The notes beneath the pieces were generated by a model. It did not search any database. It saw only the letters and a list, made by a program, of their open reading frames with translations, and was not told the origin of the DNA. Below are positions 3,197 to 58,320 of a stretch of 64,000 nt of DNA, one piece after another. The DNA is from Bombella apis (GTDB lineage Bacteria; Pseudomonadota; Alphaproteobacteria; Acetobacterales; Acetobacteraceae), in contig NZ_JAGJTM010000005.1 in assembly GCF_018221685.1 (NCBI RefSeq), positions 255,501 to 319,500 on the forward strand, read 5' to 3'. The number at the start of each line of letters is the position of its first letter. Position 1 is the first letter of the stretch. A program made the position numbers and the translations under genes.

Positions 3197-3221
3197 CAAG
3201 CATAGTCTCCTACGCCCCAAC

Positions 3222-3230
3222 TTAACCTTA
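3222..3230 (+). promoter_or_regulatory. TTAACCTT-type motif before flgI
   Basis: TTAACCTTA in the short divergent region between flgI (minus) and the transglycosylase gene (plus). It differs at the last base from TTAACCTTG found before fliF, flgG and hpnJ. The regulator is unknown; a CtrA- or FtcR-type protein is the obvious candidate. Confidence 0.4.
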
Positions 3231-3313
3231 TATATGGATTATACAAGGAAAATTATTTAATGGTATTCCTTGGTTACCCTGAAATTCCGCCAAAAGAAAG
3301 CCTTGAGAGACCC

Positions 3314-4366
3314 ATGACCTCCATCTTTCAGCATGACAAACCCGGGCGCTGGCTCCACCTCGCCCTCTGGCGGGTCCCGGGGCTTCTTCTGGGCATGTTC
3401 CTGACCCCGCCTGCCATGGCCCAGATTTCACTCCCCCCCATGGACCCCACCCAGTCCCGCCTCTGCCGCACTGCCACGGAGCAGGTAGAACGGGCCCTGC
3501 GACTGCCGGATGGTTTCCTTTCGGCCATCAGCCGGGTGGAAACAGGCCGCCCGGATGGCAATGGCACCCTCACCCCATGGCCATGGAGCATCAATGTTGC
3601 CGGGACAGGTCACTATTATGCCTCACGCCAGGAAGCGGTAGAGGCTGTAAAAGCCTTCCAGCAGCAGGGCATACAGTCCATTGATGTCGGCTGCCTTCAG
3701 GTCAATCTCCTCCACCATCCAACAGCCTTCCCCTCTCTGGATACAGCCTTCGACCCCTACAGCAATGCCCGCTATGCTGGCCTGTTTCTCCAGAAAATGA
3801 AGGACCAGACCGGCAGCTGGCCACGGGCCGCTGCTGCTTATCATTCACAGACAGGCACCCTGGGCACGACCTACCTGCAACAGGTTCTCCAGCAATGGGC
3901 CACACCGCTGGACACTCCTCTGCCACACCCCCCTCTTTCCACATCGCCACATCCCGCTGTGGCGGCTGTCATGACGGGCGATCATTCTGGCGCTGGTCAG
4001 AACCACCCGGTGCAGACAACCAGGCCGTACCGGCCCTTCGTCATCAGGCCGGCATCAGCCTCCCCATCAGGGACCGGCATAACCCACGCCACTACAGGGC
4101 CCGCCAGTTTTCTGGCCGCTCTCCGCCATCAGGAAACAACACGCCCCCTACCCCCTGTGGCGCAGCCTGCTGCTGCGGCCACACCGGGACAGGCTCCCTC
4201 ACAGGGGCATCGTCCTTTCCGTCCCTTCCGGGGTTATTTCCGCCCTGCCATGCCACCACCACCGCACCAGCGAATGAAAAGCTCACAGAATGGCCGGAGT
4301 CTTGCCGCCTACCGGGCCATGCCTGTCCACGCTGCCAGCAATGTCCCTTACGCCACGGCCTACTGA
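3314..4366 (+). CDS. Lytic transglycosylase (SLT domain), exported
   Basis: A 350-residue exported protein with a signal peptide (hydrophobic run LLLGMFLTPP, cleavage near AMA-Q). An SLT-type lysozyme-fold domain covers about residues 50-200: LPDGFLSAISRVETG carries the likely catalytic Glu, followed by GCLQVNLL and AAAAYHSQTG motifs. The last 150 residues are Pro/His/Gln rich and look disordered. It would cut peptidoglycan in the periplasm. Being divergent from flgI and near a FlgJ that lacks its own muramidase, it is a good candidate for the flagellum-specific wall enzyme (inference). An upstream in-frame ATG at 3260 with an AAGGAA would add 18 residues, but 3314 gives a normal signal peptide. 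Confidence 0.8.
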   Translation: MTSIFQHDKPGRWLHLALWRVPGLLLGMFLTPPAMAQISLPPMDPTQSRLCRTATEQVERALRLPDGFLSAISRVETGRPDGNGTLTPWPWSINVAGTGHYYASRQEAVEAVKAFQQQGIQSIDVGCLQVNLLHHPTAFPSLDTAFDPYSNARYAGLFLQKMKDQTGSWPRAAAAYHSQTGTLGTTYLQQVLQQWATPLDTPLPHPPLSTSPHPAVAAVMTGDHSGAGQNHPVQTTRPYRPFVIRPASASPSGTGITHATTGPASFLAALRHQETTRPLPPVAQPAAAATPGQAPSQGHRPFRPFRGYFRPAMPPPPHQRMKSSQNGRSLAAYRAMPVHAASNVPYATAY

Positions 4367-4387
4367 CCATTCCGACAGGAGTGGCCC

Positions 4388-5305
4388 TCAGCGCCTGATA
4401 TGACCAAGCAGCTCCACCATCACCTGTGACAGGCTGGCAAAGCCCTCCTGAAGCTGTGCCACCTGCCGGGACAGCTGCCCAAGCTGGGAACGCCCCAGAT
4501 GATTCCCCTGGATGAAACCGGCCTGCATCTGTCTCAGGCGGTCTCCCCCCTGCATGGCCTTCCGGATGATGCCGTTCTTGTAGGCCAGCTCGTAATCATA
4601 GGTCACCTCATGCTGGCTGGCATCATTGGCGTCACCAGTCGCAAGACGGTGATGGTATGAACAGAGGAACTCTTCCAGAATCCCGACCTCACCCGCCATC
4701 ATGACACGCAGGAAAAGATCGTGGTCCTCGACATAATCCAGCCGCGTTTCCACTCCACCCGCCACCGCCAGGGCCGTCCGGCGGAACAGGAAGGTGATCG
4801 GCATGATGACATACATGTGGGAGAGATACAGGCCGTAATCCACCAGCGAGCCACTCTTGCGGCCAAACTGGTCCGTTTTCCTGTCCGTGATGATCCGTCC
4901 ATCCTCGATACGTTCATACACGTCATAATTGCTGGTCGTGACACCAGCATAGAAACCCGTCCCGTCCCGCTCCAGAAAGGCGACCGTCTCGGCCAGGAAA
5001 GAAGGCTCCAGCGTGTCATCATCATCATGGATGAGAATATAAGGCTCGTCGGACACGGCCAAGGCAAGGGCCAGTGCCTTGCTGCGTCCGACAGACCGGG
5101 GCAGATCCACGCAGGAAAGGCGCTCCCCCCATGATGGGCCACACTCTGCAACGCAGGCCCGCAGGGCGGCCATGTCTCCCCCGTCATTGATGATATGGAT
5201 ACGGAAGTCCTGAAAGCTCTGCGCCCTCAGTGTTTCCAGAGCCCGACGCAGAAAAACGGGACGGTTTTTCGTGCGCAGCAGGATGGCTACCTTATAAGAT
5301 GACAT
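4388..5305 (-). CDS. Glycosyltransferase family 2 protein
   Basis: A 305-residue GT-A type enzyme. The N-terminal Rossmann-like start is KVAILLRTKNRP, with HIINDGGD, the nucleotide-sugar/metal motif IHDDDDTLEPSF near residue 95, and DYVEDHDLFLRV (the catalytic ED pair) near 190. The C-terminal 80 residues are helical with heptad-like Leu/Gln repeats, suggesting a coiled coil. It starts 3 bases after the TPR-glycosyltransferase gene upstream, so the two form an operon. Set between flagellar operons, it may help build a glycan for flagellin or the cell surface. Donor and acceptor cannot be read from the sequence. Confidence 0.8.
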   Translation of the reverse strand: MSSYKVAILLRTKNRPVFLRRALETLRAQSFQDFRIHIINDGGDMAALRACVAECGPSWGERLSCVDLPRSVGRSKALALALAVSDEPYILIHDDDDTLEPSFLAETVAFLERDGTGFYAGVTTSNYDVYERIEDGRIITDRKTDQFGRKSGSLVDYGLYLSHMYVIMPITFLFRRTALAVAGGVETRLDYVEDHDLFLRVMMAGEVGILEEFLCSYHHRLATGDANDASQHEVTYDYELAYKNGIIRKAMQGGDRLRQMQAGFIQGNHLGRSQLGQLSRQVAQLQEGFASLSQVMVELLGHIRR

Positions 5306-5308
5306 GGC

Positions 5309-6967
5309 TCAGCCCTCCGCAATCCGCCGTCTCAGGGAGACGGCCACGTCCTTCAGAACAGGGGCAAGAGACAGCTCCTGCGCCCGGAAAATACGCATGG
5401 TCGGGTACCACGGGGTGCGGTCACCTTCATCACCCCACCGCCAGCAGGCATCCCATCGACTGACCAGCCAGACTTCCCGGCCCAGTGCCCCCGCCAGATG
5501 CAGCGGGGCCGTATCAACGGAAATGACAAGGTCCAGACTTTCCATCAGGGCAGCCGTATCCGCCATGTCCTGCACGTGTCCCATCAGATCATGCACGACC
5601 GCTCCCTGCCCCTCCACTGGCTCCAGCTCTCCCCGCCGGTCGCCATACTGAAGGCTGAACAGATCAGCCTCCACCGGCCCGAGGGCCTCCATCATCTCCG
5701 CAAAACTGCTGGAACGCCGCCTGTCTGCAGCCACATCCTGTGCGCTGGACCGAGAATCCCCTGCCCAGACGAGCCCTACACGCAGGCGCCGCCCGGCAGG
5801 GCTGTGCCCCCCTGCCCGGCCACCCTGTGCCACGGCCTGCTCCACAAGTCGGGCAAAATGCTCCCGCCGCCGCACCGGAACTTCCAGATAGGGACTGAAA
5901 GCCGGAATATCAGCCACGTGCCTGAGATGACAGAGATAGGGAAGGTCCGGTATCGGGCAGGAAAAATCATACTCTGCCACGCGCTCCGGATGGTCCAGAA
6001 GCTCCGTGATAAGACAGACCTGCACCATGGGGTAGCTTTCCCTCAGCAGCCGGGCCAACGATGGCAGAACGGCCAGCGTGACCCGCCCTGCCCGGCGGAC
6101 GATCTCCGGCAGGAAGCGAATGAACTGGATCGTATCGCCAAGCCCCTGCTCCTGATAGAAAAGAAGGTGGCGCCCTTCCAGCGGAACATCGTTCGTCAGT
6201 CTGGGCAGGTCCTGATAGAACCAGCAGTTCAGGCTCGGAATACGGGGCACACGCCTTACATAGCGGGCAAAGCCCTCCTCATACTCACCGGCTTTCAACA
6301 GGGCGATGGCATAGCCGAAGGAAACAGCCTCATGCCGGGAGGACAGCTCCATTCCCCGGCGATAATAGGCCAGGGCATCCCGGGAGCGGTTCAGCCGTCC
6401 CAGAGCGCAACCCATGTTGTTGTACAGCGAGACGGAGGGCGGTCCATCCGCAAGCCAGGCCAACAGCACCTGCTCAGCCTGATCCGCCAGCCCCGCCTCC
6501 AGCAGGGCCATTGAAAGATGCTCCCCGACAAGCACCCGATGTTCTGGCAGAGTCCGGGCAACATCCATGAAGAGGGCCATGGCCTCTTCCCGTTCGCCCG
6601 CCACCATGAGCGCCCCTGCCAGAAAAATCTTCACCTCGCCCCGCATGGAGGCCATGGCGGGTTCCGCCTCCGGCATCAAAAGCAGAGCCTTGCGGAAGAC
6701 GGCAATCACCACCTCATGCCGGGGGGTGAAACGGACAAGAAAAAGGCCCGCCGCAAGAATGAGCGCCACATCCTGCGTCCCCTGGGCAATCTGTATGGCC
6801 AGACTGACAGCCTGGTCTCCCTCACCACGGGCAACAAGCTGCTGGCAGCAGGCTGTCACTTCCTGCGGGGTCAGTGCAATCTGACCAGCCTCATGACTGC
6901 CATCTTCCACCCTGCCATGCTGCTCTGCTCCTGCCATCATGCTGCCTTTCTTCATGCCTTGAACCAT
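5309..6967 (-). CDS. TPR-repeat protein with GT9/GT41-like glycosyltransferase domain
   Basis: A 552-residue two-part protein. Residues about 20-240 are helical repeats of TPR type (for example LLAWLADGPPSVSLYNNMG and RDALAYYRRGMEL). The C-terminal half resembles the heptosyltransferase/O-GlcNAc-transferase GT-B fold: GLGDTIQFIRFLPEI, a second nucleotide-binding half beginning RVGLVWAGD, and the signature ISVDTAPLHLAGALG. TPR-GT proteins of this form often modify proteins, so a role in flagellin glycosylation is plausible but inferred. Start 6967 is the first ATG; ATGs at 6952 and 6937 are alternatives. It leads a two-gene operon with the GT2 gene. Confidence 0.7.
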   Translation of the reverse strand: MVQGMKKGSMMAGAEQHGRVEDGSHEAGQIALTPQEVTACCQQLVARGEGDQAVSLAIQIAQGTQDVALILAAGLFLVRFTPRHEVVIAVFRKALLLMPEAEPAMASMRGEVKIFLAGALMVAGEREEAMALFMDVARTLPEHRVLVGEHLSMALLEAGLADQAEQVLLAWLADGPPSVSLYNNMGCALGRLNRSRDALAYYRRGMELSSRHEAVSFGYAIALLKAGEYEEGFARYVRRVPRIPSLNCWFYQDLPRLTNDVPLEGRHLLFYQEQGLGDTIQFIRFLPEIVRRAGRVTLAVLPSLARLLRESYPMVQVCLITELLDHPERVAEYDFSCPIPDLPYLCHLRHVADIPAFSPYLEVPVRRREHFARLVEQAVAQGGRAGGHSPAGRRLRVGLVWAGDSRSSAQDVAADRRRSSSFAEMMEALGPVEADLFSLQYGDRRGELEPVEGQGAVVHDLMGHVQDMADTAALMESLDLVISVDTAPLHLAGALGREVWLVSRWDACWRWGDEGDRTPWYPTMRIFRAQELSLAPVLKDVAVSLRRRIAEG

Positions 6968-7011
6968 CAATGACCTGACAGGTCATGTTCATGGCAAAAC
7001 AACATGTCCCC

Positions 7012-7082
7012 ATAAACCTTGATGGGCAAGACTTTAATGGCTAAATTGCAAACTCATAGATAACAGTCCTTAATAAACCTTG
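7012..7082 (+). promoter_or_regulatory. Two TAAACCTTG motifs before flhA
   Basis: TAAACCTTG occurs at 7013-7021 and again at 7074-7082, upstream of flhA in the divergent region shared with the TPR-glycosyltransferase gene. These resemble TTAACCTTG before other flagellar operons. They are listed as a candidate regulator-binding pair; no regulator is proven. Confidence 0.35.
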
Positions 7083-7139
7083 TTGCCACCTTCCCTACCC
7101 GTCACCCAAGCCGGGGAAGGCAGCACATCATCAGTCAGG

Positions 7140-9347
7140 ATGACAATGCCCGCTCCTTCTTCTTCCCCGCAACGGTCAGGTTCTCCCGCCCCCAAGGCGG
7201 CTCCCGGTGCAGGGGGAGCTGGCGGACTGGGCGGAAGGCTGGGCACGCTGATACGAAACCCGGCAGACCTCTTCACACCCAACGGAGCGGCCTCCCGTCT
7301 TGCCGCCCGCCTGCCCGGCACCGACATCCTGCTGGCGCTGGGCGTGATCCTGCTCATCTCCATCCTCATCGTACCGCTCCCCACGCTGATCCTGGATGTC
7401 GGGCTGTCACTGTCCATCACCTCATCCGTGCTGATCCTCATGGTGGCGCTGTTTCTGGAACGGCCTCTGGACTTCACGTCTTTCCCCACATTGCTGCTGC
7501 TGACGACCATGTTCCGTCTCTCGCTGGAAGTGGCGACAACACGGCTCATCCTCAGCCATGGCAATGAAGGTGCCTATGCAGCCGGGCATGTTGTCGCCTC
7601 CTTTGGCGGCTTTCTCATGGGCAATGATGTGGTGATCGGCGGGATCGTCTTCTGCATCCTGCTGGTGGTGAACTTCATGGTCATCACCAAGGGGTCGGGC
7701 CGCATTGCGGAGGTCTCGGCCCGCTTCTTCCTCGATGCCATGCCCGGCAAACAGATGGCCATTGATGCCGACCTCGCCTCAGGGGCCATCAATGAGCGTG
7801 GTGCCCGCTCCAAACGCAAGGAACTGGAAGAGGAAAGCTCCTTCTACGGAGCCATGGATGGTGCTGCCAAATTTGTCCGCAATGATGCCATTGCCGGAAT
7901 CCTCATCACCGCCATCAACATTCTGGGCGGTCTGACCATCGGCGTGCTGCGCCATGGCATGCCCATCAGTGAGGCGGCACAGACCTTCACCACCCTGACC
8001 ATCGGTGATGGTCTCGTCTCCCAGATTCCCGCCCTGCTGGTCTCGCTGGCCGCCGGTATCGTCGTCACGAAGGGCGGTACGGATGGCTCGGCGGACGTAA
8101 CACTTTTCCGCCAGCTGGCGGGCAATGCCAAGCCGCTGGCCATTGCGGCCACCCTGTCAGCCCTGTTTGCCGTCATGCCCGGCCTGCCGGCTTTCCCCTT
8201 CCTCATGATTGCCGCCGTGGCCGGGATCGGGGCGTGGATCCGCTACAGGACTCCCCGGCAGGATGAAGGTGAGGAAGCCCTCACCCAGCCCGCCGCTCCC
8301 ACCACGCAACCCATTTCCGACCTTCTGAAAATCGACCTCCTGCGGCTGGAAATCGGTTATGGCCTGCTCCCGCTGGCCAGCGGGGACAATGCCCAGATCA
8401 CCAAACAGATCAAGGCCCTGCGCCGCAAGATGGCAGCGGACATGGGCTTCATTACGCCATCCGTGCGGATTCAGGACAACATCCAGCTGCCGACGGACCG
8501 TTACGTCATCAAGCTCAAGGAAATCGACATTGCCTCGGGTGAGGTCAGGCCCAACCACCTGCTGGCCATATGCCCGTCCCACAAGAATGGGCAGGCCCCC
8601 CTGCCGGGTGAGAAGACAACCGAACCCTCCTTCAACCTGCCTGCCATATGGATTGATCCCGACCTGAAGAAACAGGCCACAGACCAGGGATACACAGTGG
8701 TGGACCCGGTCACTGTCATCATCACCCACCTGACGGAATCCATCAGCCAGAATCTGGGCGATCTGCTGACCTATGCCGCCACGCAGTCCCTGCTGGATGA
8801 TCTGCCGCAGGAAGAGCAGAAGCTCGTCAACGACCTCATCCCCTCACAGGTGTCCCTCAGCACGGTCCAGCGTGTTCTCCAGTCCCTGTTGCAGGAGCGC
8901 ATCTCCATCCGTGACCTGCCCACCATTCTTGAAAGCATACAGGAAGGCCACGCCCTGGCCGCCAAGGGCATCAAGGCCCTGACAGCCCATGTCCGCATCC
9001 GCCTCGCCCGACAGATATGCAACAGCTATGTCGGGCCCTCTGGCTGCATTTCCATGATCACCCTCTCTGCAGACTGGGAGAGCAACATCCTCAACAACAC
9101 GGTCGGACAGGGGGATGACCGCACGCTGGCCATGCCCCCAGCCATGCTGGACCGCTTCGTCACGGCCCTGCGCCGTGCCTTCGACCAGACAGCCACACTG
9201 GGGGAAATGCCCGTCATTGTCACGACCTCCGCCACACGGGATTCCGTGCGTATGATCGTGGACCGAATCCGCCCTTCGGTTGCCGTCATGGCACAGGCGG
9301 AAATCTATCCCCGGACCCGCATCCGTACCGTCGCCACAGTGAACTGA
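7140..9347 (+). CDS. flhA: Flagellar export gate protein FlhA
   Basis: A 735-residue inner-membrane subunit of the flagellar type III export gate. The N-terminal half has about eight membrane segments, with the family region LERPLDFTSFPTLLL, FRLSLEVATTRLIL and KFVRNDAIAG. The C-terminal cytoplasmic half carries the chaperone-docking platform, with motifs such as DPVTVIITHLTE. Full length. The ATG at 7140 is chosen because the longer frame begins with a TTG and adds only a non-conserved extension. flhF follows 44 bases downstream in the same direction. Confidence 0.95.
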   Translation: MTMPAPSSSPQRSGSPAPKAAPGAGGAGGLGGRLGTLIRNPADLFTPNGAASRLAARLPGTDILLALGVILLISILIVPLPTLILDVGLSLSITSSVLILMVALFLERPLDFTSFPTLLLLTTMFRLSLEVATTRLILSHGNEGAYAAGHVVASFGGFLMGNDVVIGGIVFCILLVVNFMVITKGSGRIAEVSARFFLDAMPGKQMAIDADLASGAINERGARSKRKELEEESSFYGAMDGAAKFVRNDAIAGILITAINILGGLTIGVLRHGMPISEAAQTFTTLTIGDGLVSQIPALLVSLAAGIVVTKGGTDGSADVTLFRQLAGNAKPLAIAATLSALFAVMPGLPAFPFLMIAAVAGIGAWIRYRTPRQDEGEEALTQPAAPTTQPISDLLKIDLLRLEIGYGLLPLASGDNAQITKQIKALRRKMAADMGFITPSVRIQDNIQLPTDRYVIKLKEIDIASGEVRPNHLLAICPSHKNGQAPLPGEKTTEPSFNLPAIWIDPDLKKQATDQGYTVVDPVTVIITHLTESISQNLGDLLTYAATQSLLDDLPQEEQKLVNDLIPSQVSLSTVQRVLQSLLQERISIRDLPTILESIQEGHALAAKGIKALTAHVRIRLARQICNSYVGPSGCISMITLSADWESNILNNTVGQGDDRTLAMPPAMLDRFVTALRRAFDQTATLGEMPVIVTTSATRDSVRMIVDRIRPSVAVMAQAEIYPRTRIRTVATVN

Positions 9348-9391
9348 CTGGCCCCGACAGACTGAAACCCCTCCAACACCGGACCTGACCC

Positions 9392-10204
9392 ATGACCAGC
9401 TTTTCCTCCACCCAGACATCTCCCCAGCATCACACCGCCACAGGTGCTTCCGGCATGGCTGGCGGAGATGTCGCCCTGCCCGCCAATGCCCTGAGCATAC
9501 CGGAGATTCTGGCGTGGCATTCCATCCCGCAGGAACTGATCAATGCCATGGCAGGCAGCAGCCTGGCGGCAGGGCTGGAACGTGTGATCAACTTTTCCCC
9601 TTTCCCGCTACGGCTGGGCGTGCCCATGGCACTGGGCGGGGCCTCTGGCTCTGGCAAGTCCCTGACACTGGCCAAACTGGCCGCCCGCTATGCCCGACAG
9701 GCCCGGCAGTCCGGCGGGAGGATCAGACGGCCGCTCGTCCTGGCCTGCGACAGCACGCCGGGCAGCTACATCAAGCTGGCCTCCATCCTGCGAGGCTGTG
9801 ACATTGATCTGATGAAAGCCTATGGCGGCATCAACCCCCGCTTCATCGACAGCTACAACCGCATCATTCTGGTAGATCTGCCGGGGCTCTGCGTCTATTC
9901 CCCCAAGGCCATGAGCGAAATGAAGGATGTCGTGGCCCGTACGGAGGCCAGCCTGTCTCTCGTCATCCCCGCAGGGATGGACCCGGAGGAAAGCACGGAT
10001 ATTGCCGCCGCCTTCCTGCAATGTGGTGCAAAATCAATGATCGCCAGCCGCATGGAACAGTCCGGACGGATCGGCAGCATCATCACCGCCGCCGCCTGCG
10101 GCCTGCCACTGACCTATGGCAGCTATTCCGGCAGCATCAATGAAGGCTTCACCCAGCTGACACCGACCATTCTGGCCCGCAGGCTTCTGGTCCTGCCGGG
10201 GTGA
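9392..10204 (+). CDS. flhF: FlhF-like SRP-family GTPase, short and partly degenerate
   Basis: A 270-residue protein with the SRP-type P-loop GASGSGKS near residue 90, a LACDSTPGSYIKLASI segment and DLPGL (G3-like). In FlhF these bind GTP and place the flagellum at the pole. It is short: FlhF is commonly 350-450 residues, and here the N-terminal basic B domain is replaced by about 40 low-complexity residues. Where FlhF has the guanine-specificity motif TKLDE, this protein reads ASRMEQSGRIGSII, so G4 appears lost. It follows flhA closely and converges with fliP 12 bases away. Identity is inferred from position plus motifs. Confidence 0.75.
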   Translation: MTSFSSTQTSPQHHTATGASGMAGGDVALPANALSIPEILAWHSIPQELINAMAGSSLAAGLERVINFSPFPLRLGVPMALGGASGSGKSLTLAKLAARYARQARQSGGRIRRPLVLACDSTPGSYIKLASILRGCDIDLMKAYGGINPRFIDSYNRIILVDLPGLCVYSPKAMSEMKDVVARTEASLSLVIPAGMDPEESTDIAAAFLQCGAKSMIASRMEQSGRIGSIITAAACGLPLTYGSYSGSINEGFTQLTPTILARRLLVLPG

Positions 10205-10216
10205 AAGGTGGCGGGG

Positions 10217-11086
10217 CTACCCCCCGCCAAAGCTACGGACCAGCCCGCCCGACACCATCTGGAACCCATCCACCAGTACAAAGAAAATCAGCTTGAAAGG
10301 CAGGGAAATGGTCGGGGGTGGCAGCATCATCATCCCCAGGCTCATCAGCACACTGGACGTGACAAGGTCGATCACCAGAAACGGCAGATAGAGTAGGAAG
10401 CCCATCTCGAACCCACGGCTCAGCTCACCGACCATGAAGGCCGGAACAATGACCCGCCATGGTGGAGCCGGAGCAGCTGCTCCATTGGCTGGTGCAGGCT
10501 GGGGCTTCAGCCCTGCCAGATGGTAAAAGATGGCCACGTCATTCGGACGGGCATTATGGACCATGAAATCACGGAACGGCTCAGCCGCCGCCTGGAGACC
10601 TGCCATCTCCTCCACCCGACCGTCCATCAGGGGTTCAATACCCTGCTGCCATGAGCGCTCCAGCGTCGGCTGCATGACAAACAGGGTCAGGATCAGCGCA
10701 AGGGCCACCAGAACCATGTTGGGCGGTGTCCCCTGCGCCCCGATGGCGCTCCGCAACAATGAGAGCGTGATGATGATACGGGTGAAGGCCGTCATCATCA
10801 CCAGCAGGCTTGGTGCCAGGGACAGAAACGCCACAAGGGCCGTCAGCTGGATCAAACGGCTTGTTGTTCCGGCCTCACCAATTCCACCCCCCTTGCCCAT
10901 ATCCAGCGTGATGGACTGGGCTGTGGCCGAATGGGAAAGTACACACAGCAGCGTTATGCCAGCAGCCAGACAGCACAGCCCCACCGCTCCCAGAACCATG
11001 GCGCGCCGCAGGCGTTTCCAGCAGGCTGACATGTCTGCCACCATTCCGGTACCCGAACGGCCTTTCATGATACGATCTGCCCTCAT
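10217..11086 (-). CDS. fliP: Flagellar export gate protein FliP
   Basis: A 289-residue core subunit of the export gate. It has an N-terminal hydrophobic signal-like segment, then IQLTALVAFLSLAPSLLVMM, TAFTRIIITLSLLRSAIG and a C-terminal pair of membrane helices with GFEMGFLLYLPFLVIDLV, all diagnostic for FliP. The start at 11086 overlaps the fliO stop in an ATGA, as elsewhere in this operon; longer in-frame starts would lie inside fliO. It is the last gene of fliF-G-H-N-O-P. fliQ, fliR and flhB do not follow. Confidence 0.93.
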   Translation of the reverse strand: MRADRIMKGRSGTGMVADMSACWKRLRRAMVLGAVGLCCLAAGITLLCVLSHSATAQSITLDMGKGGGIGEAGTTSRLIQLTALVAFLSLAPSLLVMMTAFTRIIITLSLLRSAIGAQGTPPNMVLVALALILTLFVMQPTLERSWQQGIEPLMDGRVEEMAGLQAAAEPFRDFMVHNARPNDVAIFYHLAGLKPQPAPANGAAAPAPPWRVIVPAFMVGELSRGFEMGFLLYLPFLVIDLVTSSVLMSLGMMMLPPPTISLPFKLIFFVLVDGFQMVSGGLVRSFGGG

Positions 11087-11481
11087 GTCATTTCCTGCCT
11101 CTCTTCCGCCACCTGTCCGCACTGTTTCGCCGGCATGGAGGCAGCACCGGCCCCCAGCCAGCCCACGCACAGGTCGGACGGCCCACCTGTCAGAATGATG
11201 GCTGTTGCCTGCCGCCCCTCTGCATCCCTGACAGCCACAGAAAAAAGGGTCCGCTTGCCACCGAGCGGTATGGCGTCCTGCACCTTCAGGGCACGATCTT
11301 TCAGGCCCTCATCCCGCAACAGGGCTGGCATCCGGTGTTTCAGCCGCCGCAGGCACCAGGGCGTGACAAAGATCAGCCCCACGACCAGCAGAAGAGCCAG
11401 AAGCGGATTCATGTGCAGGCCCGTGACAGCCTGCATCATGGCATCCGGGCCGTGCCTCTCTCCCACAGAAGGTGCCATCAT
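11083..11481 (-). CDS. fliO: Flagellar assembly protein FliO
   Basis: A 132-residue protein with one membrane helix (PLLALLLVVGLIFVTPWCL) followed by a small cytoplasmic domain with VQDAIPLGGKRTLFSVAV, the FliO signature. It helps FliP assemble. It overlaps fliN and fliP by 4 bases each (ATGA), so translation is coupled. The C-terminal tail (AKQCGQVAEERQEMT) is poorly conserved. The true start could also be the ATG at residue 15 or 24. Confidence 0.85.
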   Translation of the reverse strand: MMAPSVGERHGPDAMMQAVTGLHMNPLLALLLVVGLIFVTPWCLRRLKHRMPALLRDEGLKDRALKVQDAIPLGGKRTLFSVAVRDAEGRQATAIILTGGPSDLCVGWLGAGAASMPAKQCGQVAEERQEMT

Positions 11482-11870
11482 GTACTGGCAGAGGAGGACA
11501 TGATCTCCGTCATCGTCACGGCAATGTTGTCATCCTCAATGATGGTGATCTCGCCACGGGCGATCAGCCTGTCATTGGCGTAAATATCGATGGAAGACCC
11601 AAGCTTGCGGTTCAGCGGCACAACGGCACCACGGCCAAGACGGACCAGGTCCCGCACGGGCATCTTCACATCTCCCACCACAGCGGTGATCTTGACCGGA
11701 ACATCCAGAATCGCTTCCCGCTCCCGTTCCCTGTCCTGCCGACCATCATGCTGGGTGGCGCCCTCCTCCGGCACCTCCGAGGAGAAATCGGCCAGATCGA
11801 CCTCCGGCGTACTGGTCTGCTGTGTTTCTGGTGCTGTCTCCGGCGTGTTCATATCCTCTGCCATCGTCAC
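11478..11870 (-). CDS. fliN: Flagellar motor switch protein FliN
   Basis: A 130-residue C-ring protein. After a 50-residue acidic, probably disordered N-terminus comes the SpoA domain: ILDVPVKITAVVGD, LVRLGRGAVVPLNRKLGSS, DIYANDRLIARGEI and DDNIAVTMTEI, all typical of FliN. It binds FliM and FliG and helps dock export substrates at the C ring. It sits between fliH and fliO with 4-base overlaps. Confidence 0.93.
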   Translation of the reverse strand: MTMAEDMNTPETAPETQQTSTPEVDLADFSSEVPEEGATQHDGRQDREREREAILDVPVKITAVVGDVKMPVRDLVRLGRGAVVPLNRKLGSSIDIYANDRLIARGEITIIEDDNIAVTMTEIMSSSAST

Positions 11871-12637
11871 TCTCCTTCATGCTGTGCTGTCTGTTCACCC
11901 TGGGGCTGGTCGGTAGCGGGATCAGCCTCCGGGGCCGGTGGACGGGTCAGGGCCACCATGGCATCGGCCACCCGCTGGCGGACCGTTTCCGCCCATTTTC
12001 CCTGGTCCAGAACAATCCGTGTCCTGTCTGCGGCAATCGTGAGATGCCCGGCCTGCTGCGCCGCCTCCACATGCAGGGAGACGGCCGCCATCCCGGACAG
12101 GGCGTGGCGCAGAGAGGCCTCATCCGCCGCAGCGCAGGTCAGACTGACCGGACCACTACAGTGCCGGACCAAGGCCGCCGCATCCTCTGCCAGGTCCCGC
12201 CCCAGTGCTGTCCGGGACAGATCGCCCGCCACCAGCTCTTCCACCGTCTGGCACACACCCTGCACGAAGAGATCGGCCATCCGGCTCACGATGTCATGGC
12301 GCCGGTTTTCCTCCTCCTCCATGAAAGCAAGCACCTGCTTCACAGAAGCGGCCATCTGGCTGGAAAGCTGCTGCCCGGCTGACATTTCCCCCTGCTCATG
12401 GCCCTGCTGCCAGGCCTCCTGCTTCAGTCTTTCCAGCTCATCAGGATGCAGCGTGACAACCGGCTCTGGAGCGGGGCTTTCATCCGCCGCATCCTCGTCA
12501 GCCACCGGCTCCGCTCCAGCGGCCAGAGACGGGTCATGAGCGGCAAAATCTTCTAGGCTTTCACTGAAGGCCTGACTTCCAGACCGGGAAGACGCCTGCA
12601 CTGCCCTATGCTGCACATCCTGTCCCATTGGCGTCAC
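11867..12637 (-). CDS. fliH: FliH-like flagellar export apparatus protein
   Basis: A 256-residue protein placed between fliG and fliN, the normal fliH position. The N-terminal third is acidic and Ala/Pro rich, the middle is a Gln/Glu-rich helix (EAWQQGHEQGEM), and the C-terminal part carries a segment like AADRTRIVLDQGKWAETVRQR, similar to FliH/V-ATPase E-subunit folds. FliH binds the export ATPase FliI, which is not encoded in this window. Both ends overlap neighbours by 4 bases. The family call leans on gene order because FliH diverges strongly. Confidence 0.75.
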   Translation of the reverse strand: MTPMGQDVQHRAVQASSRSGSQAFSESLEDFAAHDPSLAAGAEPVADEDAADESPAPEPVVTLHPDELERLKQEAWQQGHEQGEMSAGQQLSSQMAASVKQVLAFMEEEENRRHDIVSRMADLFVQGVCQTVEELVAGDLSRTALGRDLAEDAAALVRHCSGPVSLTCAAADEASLRHALSGMAAVSLHVEAAQQAGHLTIAADRTRIVLDQGKWAETVRQRVADAMVALTRPPAPEADPATDQPQGEQTAQHEGE

Positions 12638-13722: not shown

Positions 13723-13734
13723 GATTGCGTCTCC

Positions 13735-15369
13735 TCAGCCTTCTGCTGTCTGCTTGGGGGGCTCCGGTTCTGCCAGCCAGTTGCGGACGACAGCGATGGC
13801 ATCATCAGGATTTTCTTCAACACGCTGCGTCACACGGGCCAGAGCCTCACGGCGCATTTCCCCTTCCACACCATCCACACTGATGCGATCACTCCGGCCT
13901 GCCTCACCACCTTCAGCAGAGCTGCCATCAGCTGCAGCTTCGGCCCCGGCAACAGCCCCTTCTGCCCCGGCCCCTTTGCGGGCACGCCGCAGGATGGGCC
14001 CAAGCAGCATGGCCGCCGCCCCCAGAAGAAGAAGAATGGGAACAATCCATTCCGCCAGATAAATGATCATCTCCCGGGTGAAGAAAGGCGTATCCTGATG
14101 AGGCATATCTGCCCCACCATCCACACGGAACGGCATGGACACCACATTGACCTCATCCCCGCGGGTCTTGTCATACCCGATGGCCGTCTGCACGAGCTGG
14201 GTCAGACGTTTGACCTCAGCTTCATCCAGCGGTTTCCACGAAGGTTTGCCAGCCTGGTCTGTCGTGACGGTCCCATCGACCATGACAGCGAGACTGATGC
14301 GAGAGACACGGGGCCGGGTCTGGTTGATGACACGGGTCCGTTTGCCGATCTCATAATTGTTTGTTTCGTCCGTCCGCTCTTCGCTGGAGCCAGTACGATT
14401 GTTCTGCCCTGCATTGGCATTGGGCAGATTGTTGCCAACGCTGGTGTTCTGGTTCGCCTCGCTGTTGGCGCTCTTGTCCGTGCTTGTGCTCTGGGAACGC
14501 AGGACCTGCTGGTTGGGATCGTAGGATTCATCCGTCTCATGGATGATGTCCGTATTCATCGTCACGGCAGCACGGGCCCGCACATGGCCCAGGCCCAGCG
14601 TGGGGGTCAGGATATCTTCCACCGCCTGGGCAAGGCGCTGCTCTTCGGAATGACGCTGCTTCTCCAGCGAGGATTCCTGCCCTGCCAGACTGTCTGGGTC
14701 CCCCGGACGGGCCAGAACATCGCCCCGTGTGTCGACAATGGAAATCCCGTGCGTGCGCAGCCCCGGTACGGCAGCTGATACCAGATTCTGGATGGCCGCA
14801 ATGGCATCCTCGGACACAGCACCAGAGCGGCCAACATCCAGAATGACACTGGCCTGCGAAGGATTCGTCTCCGTAGAAAACAGGTCCCTATGTGGCAGAA
14901 CAAGGTGGACCCGCACATTCCGCACACCATGGATCAGACGGATGGAACGCTCCAGCTCACCTTCCAGCGCTCTGGTCTCATCAATGCCCTGTTCAAACTG
15001 GGTACTGGTCAGCGTGCCGCTCTTGTCGAACAGTTCATAGCCAACGGCCCCTCCCCCGGGCAGACCAGCCTTGGCCAGCAGAAGACGGGCCTGGGCCACA
15101 TCATTCCCCGGAACATAAAGGCTGCGACCATCCGGCCCTGTTGTCGTGGGGATGTGAGCCTTGGCCAGATCATCCACCATCTCCGCCGCTTCATTCAGCT
15201 CCAGGTCCCCATAGAGCAGCGCCATGGGTTCTGACCGGTTGTGAAAGGCAATCACGCCGAGAGAGAGCAGCAGCAGCACGCCGACAACCCCGAGAGCCAC
15301 AAGCCGCATGCGGCCCAGACTCTTCAGCCCTTCCATGATATTTGGCAAACGGAGCTTATCAAACTGCAT
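13735..15369 (-). CDS. fliF: Flagellar MS-ring protein FliF
   Basis: A 544-residue inner-membrane ring protein. It has a first membrane helix (LVALGVVGVLLLLSLGVIAF), the LLYGDLELNEAAEMVDDL opening, ring-building motifs (ARLLLAKAGLPGGGAVGYE, STQFEQGIDETRALEGELE), an asparagine-rich periplasmic insertion around residues 300-340, a second membrane helix near 435-460 and a C-terminal FliG-binding tail. Full length. It heads the fliF-G-H-N-O-P operon. Upstream sits an inverted pair of ATTAACCTTG sites. Confidence 0.95.
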   Translation of the reverse strand: MQFDKLRLPNIMEGLKSLGRMRLVALGVVGVLLLLSLGVIAFHNRSEPMALLYGDLELNEAAEMVDDLAKAHIPTTTGPDGRSLYVPGNDVAQARLLLAKAGLPGGGAVGYELFDKSGTLTSTQFEQGIDETRALEGELERSIRLIHGVRNVRVHLVLPHRDLFSTETNPSQASVILDVGRSGAVSEDAIAAIQNLVSAAVPGLRTHGISIVDTRGDVLARPGDPDSLAGQESSLEKQRHSEEQRLAQAVEDILTPTLGLGHVRARAAVTMNTDIIHETDESYDPNQQVLRSQSTSTDKSANSEANQNTSVGNNLPNANAGQNNRTGSSEERTDETNNYEIGKRTRVINQTRPRVSRISLAVMVDGTVTTDQAGKPSWKPLDEAEVKRLTQLVQTAIGYDKTRGDEVNVVSMPFRVDGGADMPHQDTPFFTREMIIYLAEWIVPILLLLGAAAMLLGPILRRARKGAGAEGAVAGAEAAADGSSAEGGEAGRSDRISVDGVEGEMRREALARVTQRVEENPDDAIAVVRNWLAEPEPPKQTAEG

Positions 15370-15475
15370 ATGAAGGGTATCTACCTGCTGCTTTCACCCC
15401 GGACGTCAGACATGCTGGTTCCGGTCATTCACCATACTCTGCCCTGCTCGGAAGAGGACAACCGACCGGCCATCA

Positions 15476-15520
15476 ATTAACCTTGAGAAGAGCATGTGTA
15501 AAGCCAATAACAAGGTTAAT
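15476..15520. promoter_or_regulatory. Inverted pair of ATTAACCTTG sites before fliF
   Basis: ATTAACCTTG at 15476-15485 and its exact reverse complement CAAGGTTAAT at 15511-15520, separated by 25 bases, lie about 110-150 bases upstream of fliF. The arms are 10 bases and perfect. They could bind a dimeric regulator or form a hairpin. The same core is seen before flgI, flhA, flgG and hpnJ. Confidence 0.5.
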
Positions 15521-15546
15521 AATGGCCATATTTCATAACAATTTCA

Positions 15547-15930
15547 TCATGGTGCATAATACTGGCTGGAGGGAGGAACTTTAGCTTCCGGCATCATGAG
15601 GCGGTTGGCATTCTGCTGGGTCGTCAGTCCACGGGGACCTTCATAGACTTCATGGGCCATGTTCGGGGTCAACTCAGGACGGGCCCAGCAATCCACGCCA
15701 TTCCAGCTCTGGGTGCAGTAAGGCTGTGGAGGCAGAACACGTTCCGGTGGATTGCACCAGTCTTCCCCCTCCTCCAGATAACCGGCCTGGCAGTCCCGCC
15801 CTGTCAGCTTGCTGGCAATATAATCCGGGGCACAGGCTGACAGTCCCGCAAGAACAGGCAACAGAACCAGCATGTGCCGCCACGGGACCTGAACGGGAAA
15901 AGACCGCCTCATCATTCGTTTCTCTTTCAT
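15547..15930 (-). CDS. Cys-rich lipoprotein at the end of the flgGAH operon
   Basis: A 127-residue protein with a lipoprotein signal (VLLPVLAGLSAC, Cys at about residue 33). The mature domain has several further cysteines (DCQAGYLEEGEDWCNPP, PYCTQSWNGVDCW) that could form disulfides in the periplasm, and ends in a Pro/Tyr-rich tail (SSQYYAP). I recognise no family. It starts 10 bases after the MotE-like gene, so it belongs to the flgG-flgA-flgH-bactofilin-MotE run and may act in the periplasmic part of the flagellum. Start 15930 is chosen for the signal peptide; the longer frame reads over the upstream gene. Confidence 0.65.
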   Translation of the reverse strand: MKEKRMMRRSFPVQVPWRHMLVLLPVLAGLSACAPDYIASKLTGRDCQAGYLEEGEDWCNPPERVLPPQPYCTQSWNGVDCWARPELTPNMAHEVYEGPRGLTTQQNANRLMMPEAKVPPSSQYYAP

Positions 15931-15940
15931 GCCAGCCCCA

Positions 15941-16558
15941 TTACTGCCGCGAGGGCAACAGGGGCCCGTGCTGGGACATGGTCTCGTAGTGCAGATGTTC
16001 CACTGACGTATCAGTCGGCACATCATCCTGCCCGGTCGGAAGAACCACACCAGAGCCCCCCAGTGCCACGGGAACGGACAGAACAGCATGATGGAAATGC
16101 CGCACTCCCCCCAGATATTGCGACACCAGATTGACCCGGTCCGGCGACATGTGAGCCATGATGCCAGAGAGCTTGCGGATATTCATGGAAGCTGCGATGG
16201 CGATCAGCACGTGCGGGTCCATCACGTTGAAAACCGCTGCGGCCTCACGGGGGCGCATGGCCTCATAAATGCCCACCAGCCGGGCTGCTGCCTCCTGCGG
16301 GACAAGCTTGTGATTGTCCACATGGTCCGACAGTACAGCCATGGACTGGTTCAGCAGATGGAAGCGCATTTCCAGCGCCTTGCGGGCAGACCCCAGAATG
16401 CGCTGCTGCTCCTGCATCTGCTGGGCCATACCCTCATCAGGCATGGCCACGTCCTCCGCCACAGCCGCAGGACAGCCAACCTGCACCCCGCAAAACAGGG
16501 CAAGCGACAGAAAGACGGCGAACCAGCCGTCATGCTGATGGAAGCATCTCCTGAGCAT
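15941..16558 (-). CDS. MotE-like / MgtE-N-domain flagellar protein
   Basis: A 205-residue exported or membrane-anchored protein. A hydrophobic N-terminal segment (FAVFLSLALFCGVQVG) precedes a helical region, then a repeat-like domain RLVGIYEAMRPREAAAVF, DPHVLIAIAASMNIRKL, GIMAHMSPDRVNLVSQYL. This resembles the MgtE N-terminal / FliG-middle-type helical domain of MotE proteins, which chaperone the stator-linked protein MotC in the periplasm. It shares one base with the bactofilin stop (TGATG). No MotB or MotC gene is in the window, so the MotE role is inferred. Confidence 0.65.
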   Translation of the reverse strand: MLRRCFHQHDGWFAVFLSLALFCGVQVGCPAAVAEDVAMPDEGMAQQMQEQQRILGSARKALEMRFHLLNQSMAVLSDHVDNHKLVPQEAAARLVGIYEAMRPREAAAVFNVMDPHVLIAIAASMNIRKLSGIMAHMSPDRVNLVSQYLGGVRHFHHAVLSVPVALGGSGVVLPTGQDDVPTDTSVEHLHYETMSQHGPLLPSRQ

Positions 16559-17088
16559 CAGCCCCCCAGCGGAATGTCGGCATCCTGATCAGCCTCGCTG
16601 ATGTCCGGCGTCTGGGCCGGCCAATGCAGGTCTGGCTCATCATCTCCAGCCGGGATATTGGCCTGTGGCGTGGCAGAACTGGTGCTGTTCGTTCTGCTGG
16701 AACCACTGCCGGAAGCAGAGCCCCCAGCCCCGCCCTTGCGGGACACGGAAATGCGTACATCCCCTTCAAAACAGGCATCTTCGTGAATGGCGCAGCCAGT
16801 CGGGCTGCCCATCTCGATCACACAGTCCGAAATACGGGCCCCGGCACCGGCAGAAAGCCGTGGCGTCGTGAAGGTCACCCCGGACACGCTGCCATCAATG
16901 ACGATGGAGTCCGCCTCCACCTGACCATCTTTCATCACGCCTGTCTCCGTGACACAGAGATGCCCGGCCTGAAGCTCGACATTTTCCACCTCACCGGCGA
17001 TGGTCAGCGCACCCTCCAGCGTACCGCAGAGATGGTCGATGACCAGGCCGCCAGGAATGAAGCCTTCCGGCTGTTTTGAATCAGACAT
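16558..17088 (-). CDS. Bactofilin-family protein in a flagellar operon
   Basis: A 176-residue protein with a bactofilin beta-helix core at about residues 12-120: successive short repeats such as LCGTLEGALTIAGEVENVEL, GVMKDGQVEADSIVIDGSVSG and ISDCVIEMGSPTG. The last 55 residues are Gly/Ser/Pro/Asp rich and disordered. Bactofilins polymerise without nucleotide and organise sites at the envelope. It lies 126 bases after flgH and overlaps the MotE-like gene, so it is built into the flagellar operon and may mark or anchor the basal body. A second bactofilin lies at 62125-62625. Confidence 0.85.
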   Translation of the reverse strand: MSDSKQPEGFIPGGLVIDHLCGTLEGALTIAGEVENVELQAGHLCVTETGVMKDGQVEADSIVIDGSVSGVTFTTPRLSAGAGARISDCVIEMGSPTGCAIHEDACFEGDVRISVSRKGGAGGSASGSGSSRTNSTSSATPQANIPAGDDEPDLHWPAQTPDISEADQDADIPLGG

Positions 17089-17214
17089 TCACTACCCCTT
17101 CACTTTTACACCGCCACAATGGCCATCGTAGCACAGGCAACACAAGGCTATTTTCAAGATAAAATCTTCATAACCTGAAAACATTCAATGTTCAAACCAT
17201 GCTTCCATGACAAC

Positions 17215-17961
17215 TCAGAATGGAAGAACACTGTCCAGCACTTTCTGCCCATAACGGGGCTGCTGATACTGCGAGAGCTGCCCCCGTCCGCCATAGGAAA
17301 TCCGGGCCTCCGCAATGCGGTCATGTGTGACGATGTTGTCTTCCGAAATATCCTGCGGCCGCACAACACCACTGACCATGATCTGCCTCAGCTCGCCATT
17401 CACCCTGACCTCCTGCCGTGCGACGACGACAAAATTGCCATTAGGCAGAACCTGCGTGATGACACCTGCCAGCGTCAGCGTGACCGTATCGATACGCCTG
17501 ATGGTCCCGGCCCCGTTATTGGAGCTGGAACTGTTGGTCTGAAGGGCATCAGCACTGGTCAGATGGGAGATGAAGCGGCCCTTGAAGCCGAAAAAGCTTG
17601 GAATCCCGAAAGCCTCGGCACCACTGCCGGAGGCTGTCGTGTTATTGGTCACGTTGGCCGTATCTGCCACCTGGATTTTCACTGTCAGAAGGTCACCCGC
17701 CTGCGCAGCCCGCTGGTCCTTGAAGAACGCCCGACTACCCGGCCGCCAGAGGCTGCCCACTTCAGTCGGCGGAGCCTGAAGGGGCGGGGTTGGCATCGTC
17801 ACGGGGCGGTAATCCGGGGCCAGGGTGGGGTCGGCCGTCCGTGTCATGCGGGGTGGATGTCCCAGCTCACTGAGCGTACCAGCGCCCATGCAGCCTGCCA
17901 GCCCGGTCAGGACCACAACGAGCCCCGCCATGCAGACACTCCTGTGAAGAAGATGGATCAT
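17215..17961 (-). CDS. flgH: Flagellar L-ring lipoprotein FlgH
   Basis: A 248-residue outer-membrane ring protein. The lipobox is LTGLAGC at residues 19-25. Diagnostic FlgH segments follow: SLWRPGSRAFFKDQRA, AGDLLTVKIQVADTANV, LPNGNFVVVARQEVRVNGE, VVRPQDISEDN and ARISYGGRGQL. Its start overlaps the flgA stop by 4 bases. Full length. Confidence 0.95.
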   Translation of the reverse strand: MIHLLHRSVCMAGLVVVLTGLAGCMGAGTLSELGHPPRMTRTADPTLAPDYRPVTMPTPPLQAPPTEVGSLWRPGSRAFFKDQRAAQAGDLLTVKIQVADTANVTNNTTASGSGAEAFGIPSFFGFKGRFISHLTSADALQTNSSSSNNGAGTIRRIDTVTLTLAGVITQVLPNGNFVVVARQEVRVNGELRQIMVSGVVRPQDISEDNIVTHDRIAEARISYGGRGQLSQYQQPRYGQKVLDSVLPF

Positions 17962-19025
17962 GGATGGCTCCCGTCACCAAGCATCAGGCTGTTGATCCCC
18001 AGACGTTTCACTTCCTCCGAATCCGGCGGAATGGCTGTGGAAGAGGCATCAACCCGCACCTCGCCCGAAGCCGTGACCTTGCCGATGAGGACCATCCGGC
18101 TTCCCAGATTCAGGGCATGGACGAACTGCCCGCTTCCACCATCCTCCAGCGCCCGGCCTGTGGCTGTCAGCCGGATGCCGGTGCTGTTGTAGCTGAGCAG
18201 GACAGGGTCCCCCCGATGCACGAGCACGGCCCGCCGCAGGTCCGTACCCTGCACGGGCTGTCCGGCCCCGACAGTGCGGACAAGTGCCATGCCGATCATC
18301 CGCTCCGGCTCTGGCAGAGAACGGGCAAGCGGTGGCACCGTACCTGAAAAAGCGGGGTCGATATGCATGTCGTCCGGCTGGATGATGTGACCGGACGGCA
18401 GGGCATGGTCATACACCATCACCGGCTGCACGGGACGGATGCTGCCCCGCAGCGGAAACCTGTCCGCCCCGGCGTCTCCTGCTGCATGAGCAGGCTGTAC
18501 AGTTGCCGAGAAAAGACCGGTCTTATGATCCCAGTTCAGATTCAGGAGGGTTGCCGGGTCCTGTTCATTCTCACCGGCAACGAGAGGAGTAAAGCTGGTG
18601 ACATCCACCACGACACTACCCGTCTCACCATCCTGCGAAATGGCCTTGCGGACAAGAGCGGCATATTCGTCCCGGCCCAGCACATGCCCGGCCCGGGTCA
18701 GCGACAGACTGGTGGATGATGACTGGTCATCCCAGTCCACACCGTACTGGTCCGCCAGTGCAATGAGCTGACTGCCCCCGATGGTGATGGTCTTGCCCGG
18801 CGCAGGAGCCGGGCCAAGCAGCCGGTCCTGTCCGGCATCCAGCCCATCAAAAACATCGGACAGATAGACCGATGCACCATGCACCACACCGGAAGGTCGC
18901 AGAGTCGCCGCCATGGCCGTACTGGCAGCGGGCTCTCCAGCCAGCACAAACCCGACCGCCAGCCAGAAGCAGGCTGGCAGGAAGCTACGCCCGGTACCCC
19001 GGTATCCAATGCCAAGAAGTGCCAT
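17958..19025 (-). CDS. flgA: P-ring assembly chaperone FlgA, long form
   Basis: A 355-residue periplasmic protein, clearly longer than the 220-residue enterobacterial FlgA but similar to other alphaproteobacterial forms. A signal peptide precedes GVVHGASVYLSDVFDGL. The C-terminal SAF-type part holds YDHALPSGHIIQPDDMHID, GMALVRTVGAGQPVQGTDLRR and GDPVLLSYNSTGIRLTATGRA, the FlgA core. It helps FlgI assemble into the P ring. It is placed 11 bases after flgG and overlaps flgH. Confidence 0.9.
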   Translation of the reverse strand: MALLGIGYRGTGRSFLPACFWLAVGFVLAGEPAASTAMAATLRPSGVVHGASVYLSDVFDGLDAGQDRLLGPAPAPGKTITIGGSQLIALADQYGVDWDDQSSSTSLSLTRAGHVLGRDEYAALVRKAISQDGETGSVVVDVTSFTPLVAGENEQDPATLLNLNWDHKTGLFSATVQPAHAAGDAGADRFPLRGSIRPVQPVMVYDHALPSGHIIQPDDMHIDPAFSGTVPPLARSLPEPERMIGMALVRTVGAGQPVQGTDLRRAVLVHRGDPVLLSYNSTGIRLTATGRALEDGGSGQFVHALNLGSRMVLIGKVTASGEVRVDASSTAIPPDSEEVKRLGINSLMLGDGSHP

Positions 19026-19036
19026 GCCGCCCGCCT

Positions 19037-19825
19037 TCAGCGCAGGTTGGTCAGGGTCTGGAGCATCTCATCAGAGGCGGTGATGCTTTTGCTGTTCATC
19101 TCATAGGCACGCTGCGCCGTGATGAGATCCGTGATTTCCGTCACCGCATTGACGGCTGATTCCTCGACAAACCCCTGACGGATGGTCCCGAAACCTGTTG
19201 TCTCCGGGTTGCCGATGATCGGGTCACCCGAGGACGTGGTCTCCGTAAACAGGTTCTGCCCCATGGCTGCCAGACCATTCTCGTTCTGGAAGGTCGTCAG
19301 CTGGATCTGCCCGGCCACCTGGGAGTTGGGCTGACCGGAGAGCGTGTACTGCACCTGCCCGGTCTGATCGATGGTGATGTTTTCGGCATTGTTCGGGATG
19401 GAGATGTTCGGTGTCAGCGGATACCCGTCTGCCGTCACGATCGTACCATCCTGCGAGAGGGAGAATGTCCCGTCGCGGGTATAGGCATATTCCCCGTTGG
19501 GCAGCAGGATGCGAAAATAACCGCGGCCTTCCACGGCGAGGTCCAGCGCATTGCCGGTCTGGGACAGGGTTCCCTGCTCGTTGATGCGGTAAATGGCCGC
19601 CGTACGCACACCAAGCCCCACCTGAGCCCCGGCAGGCACACGGTACCCCGTGTCGGAACTCATCGTCCCGACACGACGCAGGTCCTGATAGATGAGGTCT
19701 TGGAATTCAGCCCGGCGGCGCTTGTACCCGGTTGTCGTCATGTTGGCGATGTTGTGGGAGATGGTCTCCACATTGGTGGACTGGGCCTGCATGCCCGTTG
19801 ATGCAACATCCAATGATCTCAGCAT
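19037..19825 (-). CDS. flgG: Distal rod protein FlgG
   Basis: A 262-residue axial protein. The N-terminus (LRSLDVASTGMQAQSTNVE, NIANMTTTGYKRRRAEFQDL) and C-terminus (GFVEESAVNAVTEITDLI, AQRAYEMNSKSI, DEMLQTLTNLR) are textbook FlgG. The length equals the usual 260-262. It heads the flgG-A-H operon and is divergent from flgF across a 256-base region that carries a CAAGGTTAA motif. Confidence 0.96.
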   Translation of the reverse strand: MLRSLDVASTGMQAQSTNVETISHNIANMTTTGYKRRRAEFQDLIYQDLRRVGTMSSDTGYRVPAGAQVGLGVRTAAIYRINEQGTLSQTGNALDLAVEGRGYFRILLPNGEYAYTRDGTFSLSQDGTIVTADGYPLTPNISIPNNAENITIDQTGQVQYTLSGQPNSQVAGQIQLTTFQNENGLAAMGQNLFTETTSSGDPIIGNPETTGFGTIRQGFVEESAVNAVTEITDLITAQRAYEMNSKSITASDEMLQTLTNLR

Positions 19826-19947
19826 AAATGAACATCCTCACGATTTGCCACAACCCACGCTCCCAGAAACGCAAGGCCACCCTGATGATGGCAGGCACCG
19901 AAACATTTTGACTGTGCCCTCCCATAAACCGACACGAAAAACATTAT

Positions 19948-19956
19948 CAAGGTTAA
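19948..19956 (-). promoter_or_regulatory. TTAACCTTG motif between flgG and flgF
   Basis: CAAGGTTAA on the plus strand (TTAACCTTG on the minus), 120 bases upstream of flgG and 126 upstream of flgF, in their shared AT-rich control region (19826-20081). It is identical to the core of the paired sites before fliF. Confidence 0.4.
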
Positions 19957-32918: not shown

Positions 32919-33154
32919 CGTTTCGTACTCCTCATTATCAAGACATAATGCTAACGCGACATTAAAATATCCTTCCATCTTTTAAATGCAATCAAAATAT
33001 TCCTTTAAATTCGTTAAAATGCCGCCACAAAGCCCATGAGATTATGGCAATTCCATGGCCTTTTACAAAGCACTAAAGGCCATTTTCTCCCCTTGACACC
33101 AGCGGTTCCGATTAATGAACTGGACATCTTCACAACCCTCATGAAAGTCCCCCA

Positions 33155-34745: not shown

Positions 34746-34847
34746 AGCAGACCTGCCATCCCTCCTGAAAGATTGAACAGAAGGTTAACGTTCCATAGGC
34801 TCGCAGCTGGCCCGTTCAATCGCCGCTCTTCAGGGAAGGATGATCCC

Positions 34848-58311: not shown

Positions 58312-58320
58312 TTAACCTTG
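58312..58320 (+). promoter_or_regulatory. TTAACCTTG motif before hpnJ
   Basis: An exact TTAACCTTG 66 bases before the hpnJ ATG. The same 9-mer occurs before fliF and flgG, so a shared regulator of hopanoid and flagellar genes is possible. Confidence 0.35.

Follow-up and report, generated by a model that had tools for sequence, protein, structure and literature searches.

Candidate CtrA-type half-sites in the flagellar promoter regions of Bombella

CtrA is a textbook example of a phosphorylation-controlled master regulator, and the D51E exchange in Caulobacter CtrA is a laboratory phosphomimetic. According to the treatment of binding sites in PMC6180460, accepted CtrA sites include TTAA-N7-TTAA, TTAACCAT, half-sites, and a six-base spacing; a single site can serve divergent flagellar promoters, and repressing half-sites sit over the -10 element. 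A passage of PMC7200025 gives the site as TTAA-N7-TTAAC. Here, we analyzed a stretch of 64,000 nt of Bombella apis (contig NZ_JAGJTM010000005.1, positions 255,501 to 319,500; hereafter “the window”), in which a preliminary description had noticed a 9-mer, TTAACCTTG, that recurs exactly or in variant form before flagellar operons and resembles CtrA half-sites. All of the matches that it listed are present, i.e. four copies of TTAACCTTG, two of TAAACCTTG, and one each of TTAACCTTA and TTAACCTTC (Table 1).

In our best reading, the motif would be a degenerate, Bombella form of the CtrA box that is seen upstream of fliF in relatives, and it is probably where regulators of the CtrA family dock. We give an even chance to the more specific proposal that it consists of CtrA-type half-sites (core T-W-AACC, then TT) in Bombella flagellar promoter regions, with the binder predicted from sequence. 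Predicted sites lie at flgI and the gene divergent from it, at flgG/flgF, flhA, and fliE, and as a facing pair at fliF; one subclade has a further site at flgK. “CtrA-type half-site” is the best label because published CtrA work accepts half-sites and because of the fliF box in relatives. With the CtrA sites of Caulobacter, Rhodobacter, and Hyphomonas, as far as the published accounts extend to these points, the Bombella sites share the AACC core, the use of half-sites, the location at flagellar promoters, and the single site between divergent operons. They differ from the half-site TTAACCAT in ending with TT(G) instead of AT, and from the full site in that a second half-site is found at fliE only and that the first TTAA bases are not kept at flgI and flhA.

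The motif is informative by its position and its conservation, not by its number. Eleven Bombella genomes, including B. favorum (G001), B. mellum (G003), B. dulcis (G007), and Bombella sp. ESL0385 (G009), contain 95 exact copies of the 9-mer, 9 in rRNA, 18 in flagellar clusters (about 293 kb of cluster stretches compared), and 68 elsewhere. All 18 cluster copies lie outside open reading frames (ORFs, defined mechanically with at least 100 aa), compared with 9 of the 68 copies elsewhere, the other 59 being inside ORFs; the genomes are kin to each other, and copy counts do not represent independent events. Nine cluster copies are at fliF, six in the flgG/flgF intergenic region, and three upstream of flgK, the latter in G005, G009, and G010 only; the flgG/flgF copy of G009 is at a different place from the others. 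No exact 9-mer was found in the flagellar cluster of B. mellum or in the second flagellar cluster of G006, which carries two such clusters (G006:C1 and G006:C7; L064-L066). The half-site TTAACC occurs 56 times outside ORFs in the clusters of 10 Bombella genomes, versus 12 times for the backward control; these counts include both G005 and G010, which are nearly identical. The recurrent flagellar promoter-region element of the preliminary description is thus borne out by the intergenic location of every cluster copy and by its conserved places. Judged from sequence comparison, the element is real, local, and of genus level, and it is CtrA-type by likeness.

Conservation at the individual sites was read from the aligned upstream regions of the 10 clusters (Table 1). 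At flgI, TTAACC is present in 2 clusters, the first base being T in 2 and C in 8. At flgG/flgF, CAAGG is kept in 9 clusters and the exact 9-mer stands at this place in 5. The inner fliF site has CAAGGTTAA in exact form in 6 clusters, the first flhA site has AACCTTG in 2, and the clusters with AACCTTG at the aligned place of the second flhA site are those of G000 (B. apis), G003, and G008. Words with TAACCT are found at both about -150 and about -115 of fliF in 5 of 10 genomes and at one of these places, or nearby, in the rest. Between the two fliF sites lies a conserved -35-like TTTACA block, a putative promoter element, and a longer conserved run (15375-15389) adjoins the start of the fliF gene. 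The conserved part differs between the sites, and the 9-mer is not supported as a fixed unit. Its “consistent CCTTG end” is correct in part only: CAAGG, its complement, is kept at flgG/flgF, whereas at flgI the kept part is TAACCTT, and at flhA 7013 only CTTG is invariant. A fixed palindrome formed by the inverted pair at fliF was considered and rejected, as the CCTTG-CAAGG distances vary among promoters.

In the cluster alignment of nine regions, TAACCTT is the sole 7-mer that is conserved in two regions (at least 8 of 10 genomes). We also counted words without alignment in 12 cluster upstream regions, using conservation thresholds of 60%, 75%, and 85%. At 60%, AACCTT emerged unsupervised as the leading 6-mer, with 5 of the 12 regions, including that of fliE outside the window, and TAACCTT was the sole leader of the 7-mers, with 3 regions. 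When columns were shuffled with conservation preserved, AACCTT never exceeded one region in 60 trials.

The fliE promoter region carries TAACCTTACATAAACCTT, two units 11 bp apart; 4 of 10 genomes have it complete and 2 almost complete. This 11-bp WWAACC tandem was found at fliE only, and 11 bp is the spacing of the full CtrA box. Upstream of a DUF1217 gene, TTTAACCAT is present in 6 of 10 genomes, two of these copies lying downstream of the extrapolated start.

For comparison, we inspected the regions upstream of fliF in 20 non-Bombella genomes of the family with fliF loci, the starts being placed by tblastn. TTAA-N7-NTAA or its mirror is present in 10 of the 20, compared with 0.22 expected from shuffles. 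A CGGCA-N3-6-TGCCG palindrome, which we take to resemble the FlbD ftr element, is found in 7 of the 20 (L028-L047) and in none of the 10 Bombella regions. The alignment of the flhA and flgG upstream regions across genera revealed no clear shared block except CTTGAT at flhA (G206 and G248).

The B. apis genome encodes two CtrA-type proteins, i.e. CtrA itself and the OmpR-type regulator of the window, here called REG. CtrA is full length, and its DNA-binding domain is of the OmpR type and contains the CtrA recognition helix, which is nearly invariant across the sampled genomes. It differs from the known response regulator at position 51, where the phosphoacceptor Asp is replaced by Glu in 7 (including B. 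apis) and by Ala in 3 of the 10 unbroken Bombella genes. The ctrA gene of G007 is frameshifted and split (G007:C12:342754-343505; L080, L225), which may be a sequencing error, and its position 51 reads Ala; this genome is the sole one of the eleven without a FliF match, and REG is missing as well. Position 51 was surveyed in the 80 named loci kept out of 527 confirmed ones, which comprise 37 with Glu, 41 with Asp, 1 with Ala, and 1 frameshifted. Glu51 is found in Acetobacter, Gluconobacter, Asaia, Bombella, and their kin, and is usual among the sampled acetic acid bacteria; two Komagataeibacter have Asp51.

A second difference from the known system is that ChpT was not found over the cut-off. 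For 29 genomes, the CtrA residue was read and ChpT was searched. None of the 16 genomes with Glu or Ala has a ChpT match over the cut-off (two have weak matches below it), versus 11 of the 13 genomes with Asp51; at least one of these 11 matches is weak and sits in a long frame. Passages in PMC2877005 (Brilli 2010) and PMC8116508 (2021) note that ChpT often escapes detection in Rhodospirillales. Our literature search found no paper treating the CtrA of acetic acid bacteria, nor was Glu51 found in print. Sigma-54 had no match in any of the 11 Bombella genomes.

The protein that reads the half-sites would be a CtrA-family protein with the OmpR fold, most likely CtrA itself. With Glu or Ala at position 51 and no ChpT found, its activity would not depend on phosphorylation. 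In the fliF promoter region, activation would come from the outer site, just upstream of the TTTACA block, and restraint from the inner site, over the predicted -10 element.

Several observations weigh against CtrA-type half-sites. The 9-mer shows no genome-wide excess: the B. apis genome, 2.04 Mb in 6 contigs, holds 13 exact copies and a single copy of the backward control; 4 of the 13 lie within 23S rRNA, and the remaining 9 are close to the about 8 expected from a hand estimate based on composition (~59% G+C). No full CtrA box (TTAA-N7-TTAA) stands at the Bombella fliF sites; the form with one free base is absent upstream of fliF in 9 of 10 Bombella genomes, and the single match lies at another place. 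The fliE site is absent from 4 of 10 genomes. The TTAA half is eroded at flgI and flhA, where CCTT or CTTG persists; a reader of TTAA would select for the opposite. At the 75% threshold, AACCTT (3 regions) ties for the lead with seven other 6-mers, at 85% the 5-mers CAAGG, AAGGT, and AAGGC tie at 5 regions, and in 3 of the 60 column shuffles some 6-mer reached 5 regions. Finally, the absence of the motif from other genera with REG (see below) may count against CtrA too, given its nearly invariant helix.

With up to one mismatch, the B. apis genome has 150 matches versus 123 for the backward control, and the window has 8 versus 5.36 +/- 2.19 expected, a value equalled or exceeded in 13 of 100 shuffles; the count in the window is thus unremarkable and not above chance. 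The 9 non-rRNA copies of the genome are divided equally among the flagellar cluster, other places outside ORFs, and the inside of ORFs (3 each). A regulatory function of the 9-mer across the whole genome was rejected in view of these counts and of the non-cluster copies, which lie mostly within ORFs. The 23S rRNA matches in this genome are of very unequal length, from 1937 to 3430 nt (L011, L012, L015, L017).

The regulator with a degenerate receiver within the flagellar cluster, which the preliminary description had named as the natural binder, is real. REG was found in 10 of the 11 Bombella genomes, all with FliF, with identities of 86-95%. Pfam gives only Trans_reg_C, and the best NCBIfam match, the CtrA equivalog, scores 113.5 bits, below the cut-off of 350. 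In the copies examined, VIQQ or IIQQ takes the place of the phosphoacceptor and the usual lysine is missing. In a tree, CtrA and REG are split from five OmpR paralogues of the same genome (100/100) and REG forms one group (100/100); the branching order within the joint group is not settled, and long branches were flagged by the tool. The tree supports REG as a CtrA paralogue, by common descent against the other OmpR paralogues. PDB sequence searches with REG and CtrA returned general OmpR-family relatives only. REG-like matches at E <= 2e-92 are present in 22 of 299 family genomes, followed by a gap; matches at 2e-48 and weaker were taken as CtrA. FtcR of Brucella and its relatives is described as an OmpR-type flagellar regulator as well; REG groups with CtrA in the above tree of REG, CtrA, and five OmpR paralogues.

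The sites could belong to REG rather than to CtrA, which we regard as unlikely. The strong conservation of REG, its absence where FliF is missing, and its position before fliL-fliM would fit such a role, and a CtrA-like site would be expected of a protein that groups with CtrA. However, seven stretches with REG orthologues from other genera (G051, G109, G110, G184, G206, G221, and G248; about 37-80 kb each, those of G184 and G221 not reaching fliF) contain no copy of TTAACCTTG and a total of 9 TTAACC outside ORFs, versus the 56 in the ten Bombella clusters. In G206, TTAACC occurs 32 times versus 11 for the control, all 32 within ORFs. As G206 and G248 keep an almost unchanged DNA-binding helix without the motif, REG alone would not explain it, and its standing as the natural binder is weakened. 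Among genera with REG, the sister genus g141 lacks the motif.

It is improbable that the conserved part is instead a promoter element, with CCTTG/CTTGAT acting as a -35-like box for a sigma factor, either house-keeping or alternative, and TTAA as an AT-rich flank. Inspection of CTTG by eye singled out neither a sigma-32-like nor a sigma-28-like reading. The invariance of CTTG alone at flhA, the CAAGG at flgG/flgF, and the alignment of CTTGAT at flhA in G206 and G248 agree with this idea, and without sigma-54 the flagellar promoters of Bombella must use another factor. However, the conserved -35-like run at fliF is the separate TTTACA block, AACCTT occurs there in both orientations, and no constant spacing to a -10 element was seen. 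Chance recurrence in AT-rich intergenic DNA, compatible with the window count, the 3 column shuffles, and an hpnJ copy without an exact counterpart, is disfavoured for the flagellar sites and very improbable, given the conservation at orthologous places and the location of cluster and other copies relative to ORFs.

The copy before hpnJ, counted as a member of the motif in the preliminary description, is judged to be a chance copy. No matching context was found among the 62 non-rRNA, non-cluster exact sites of 10 relatives; the hpnJ upstream regions themselves were not read, and inexact copies are possible. On exact copies, hpnJ was rejected as a regulon member, with no counterpart in the 10 other Bombella genomes.

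Table 1. Coordinates of the motif matches, conserved blocks, and regulators (window positions unless a contig is given; fractions refer to Bombella clusters)
Feature	Position	Strand	Remarks
TTAACCTTG upstream of fliF, read in fliF direction (outer site)	15511..15519	-	TTAACC in 7/10
CTTTACA between both fliF sites; putative -35-like element	15497..15503	-	kept in at least 9/10; predicted promoter role
Inverted fliF copy of TTAACCTTG, CAAGGTTAA in fliF direction (inner site); predicted -10 overlap	15477..15485	+	AAGGTTA in 8/10
TTAACCTTGATAA, flgG/flgF divergent region; TTAACCTTG match at 19948	19944..19956	-	TTATCAAGGT run kept in at least 9/10
TTAACCTTA between flgI (-) and + strand gene 3260-4366	3222..3230	+	TAACCTT in 10/10; gene 3260-4366 without NCBIfam match
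TATACAAGG, partner block of flgI site	3240..3248	+	run kept in at least 9/10
TAAACCTTG upstream of flhA	7013..7021	+	CTTG in 10/10
TTAATGG downstream of flhA site	7034..7040	+	conserved run in cluster alignment
Second TAAACCTTG before flhA	7074..7082	+	AACCTTG in 3/10
REG, putative CtrA-derived regulator with degenerate receiver; followed by fliL, fliM	32046..32978	-	Trans_reg_C; groups with CtrA
TTAACCTTC before alcohol dehydrogenase	34780..34788	-	window match
TTAACCTTG before hpnJ; judged chance copy	58312..58320	+	no matching context in 10 relatives
CtrA	G000:C4:419006-419746; L006:1417-2160	-	full length, CtrA recognition helix

Two observations concern glycosyltransferases of the clusters. 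In G051 (L284, about 1379-12559), seven tandem relatives of the tetratricopeptide repeat (TPR) glycosyltransferase at 5309-6970 of the window lie between flhA and flgI. The second flagellar cluster of G006 showed no match to the two glycosyltransferases.

Phosphate control has apparently been removed from CtrA in acetic acid bacteria. Tentatively, and with somewhat less than an even chance of being right in all its parts, we propose that CtrA of these bacteria has left the phosphorelay (Glu51, ChpT lost), that a dead-receiver duplicate of CtrA may serve as a flagellar regulator in some genera, and that Bombella, also without sigma-54, may have rebuilt its flagellar promoters on AACCTT half-sites, with CtrA, its duplicate, or both as permanently active readers. 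A clade with a natural Glu51, in which ChpT was not found and a receiver-dead duplicate is present, would be a natural experiment on phosphate-free timing by level, degradation, or partners, and the Bombella half-sites would offer concrete promoters for comparing CtrA with its duplicate.

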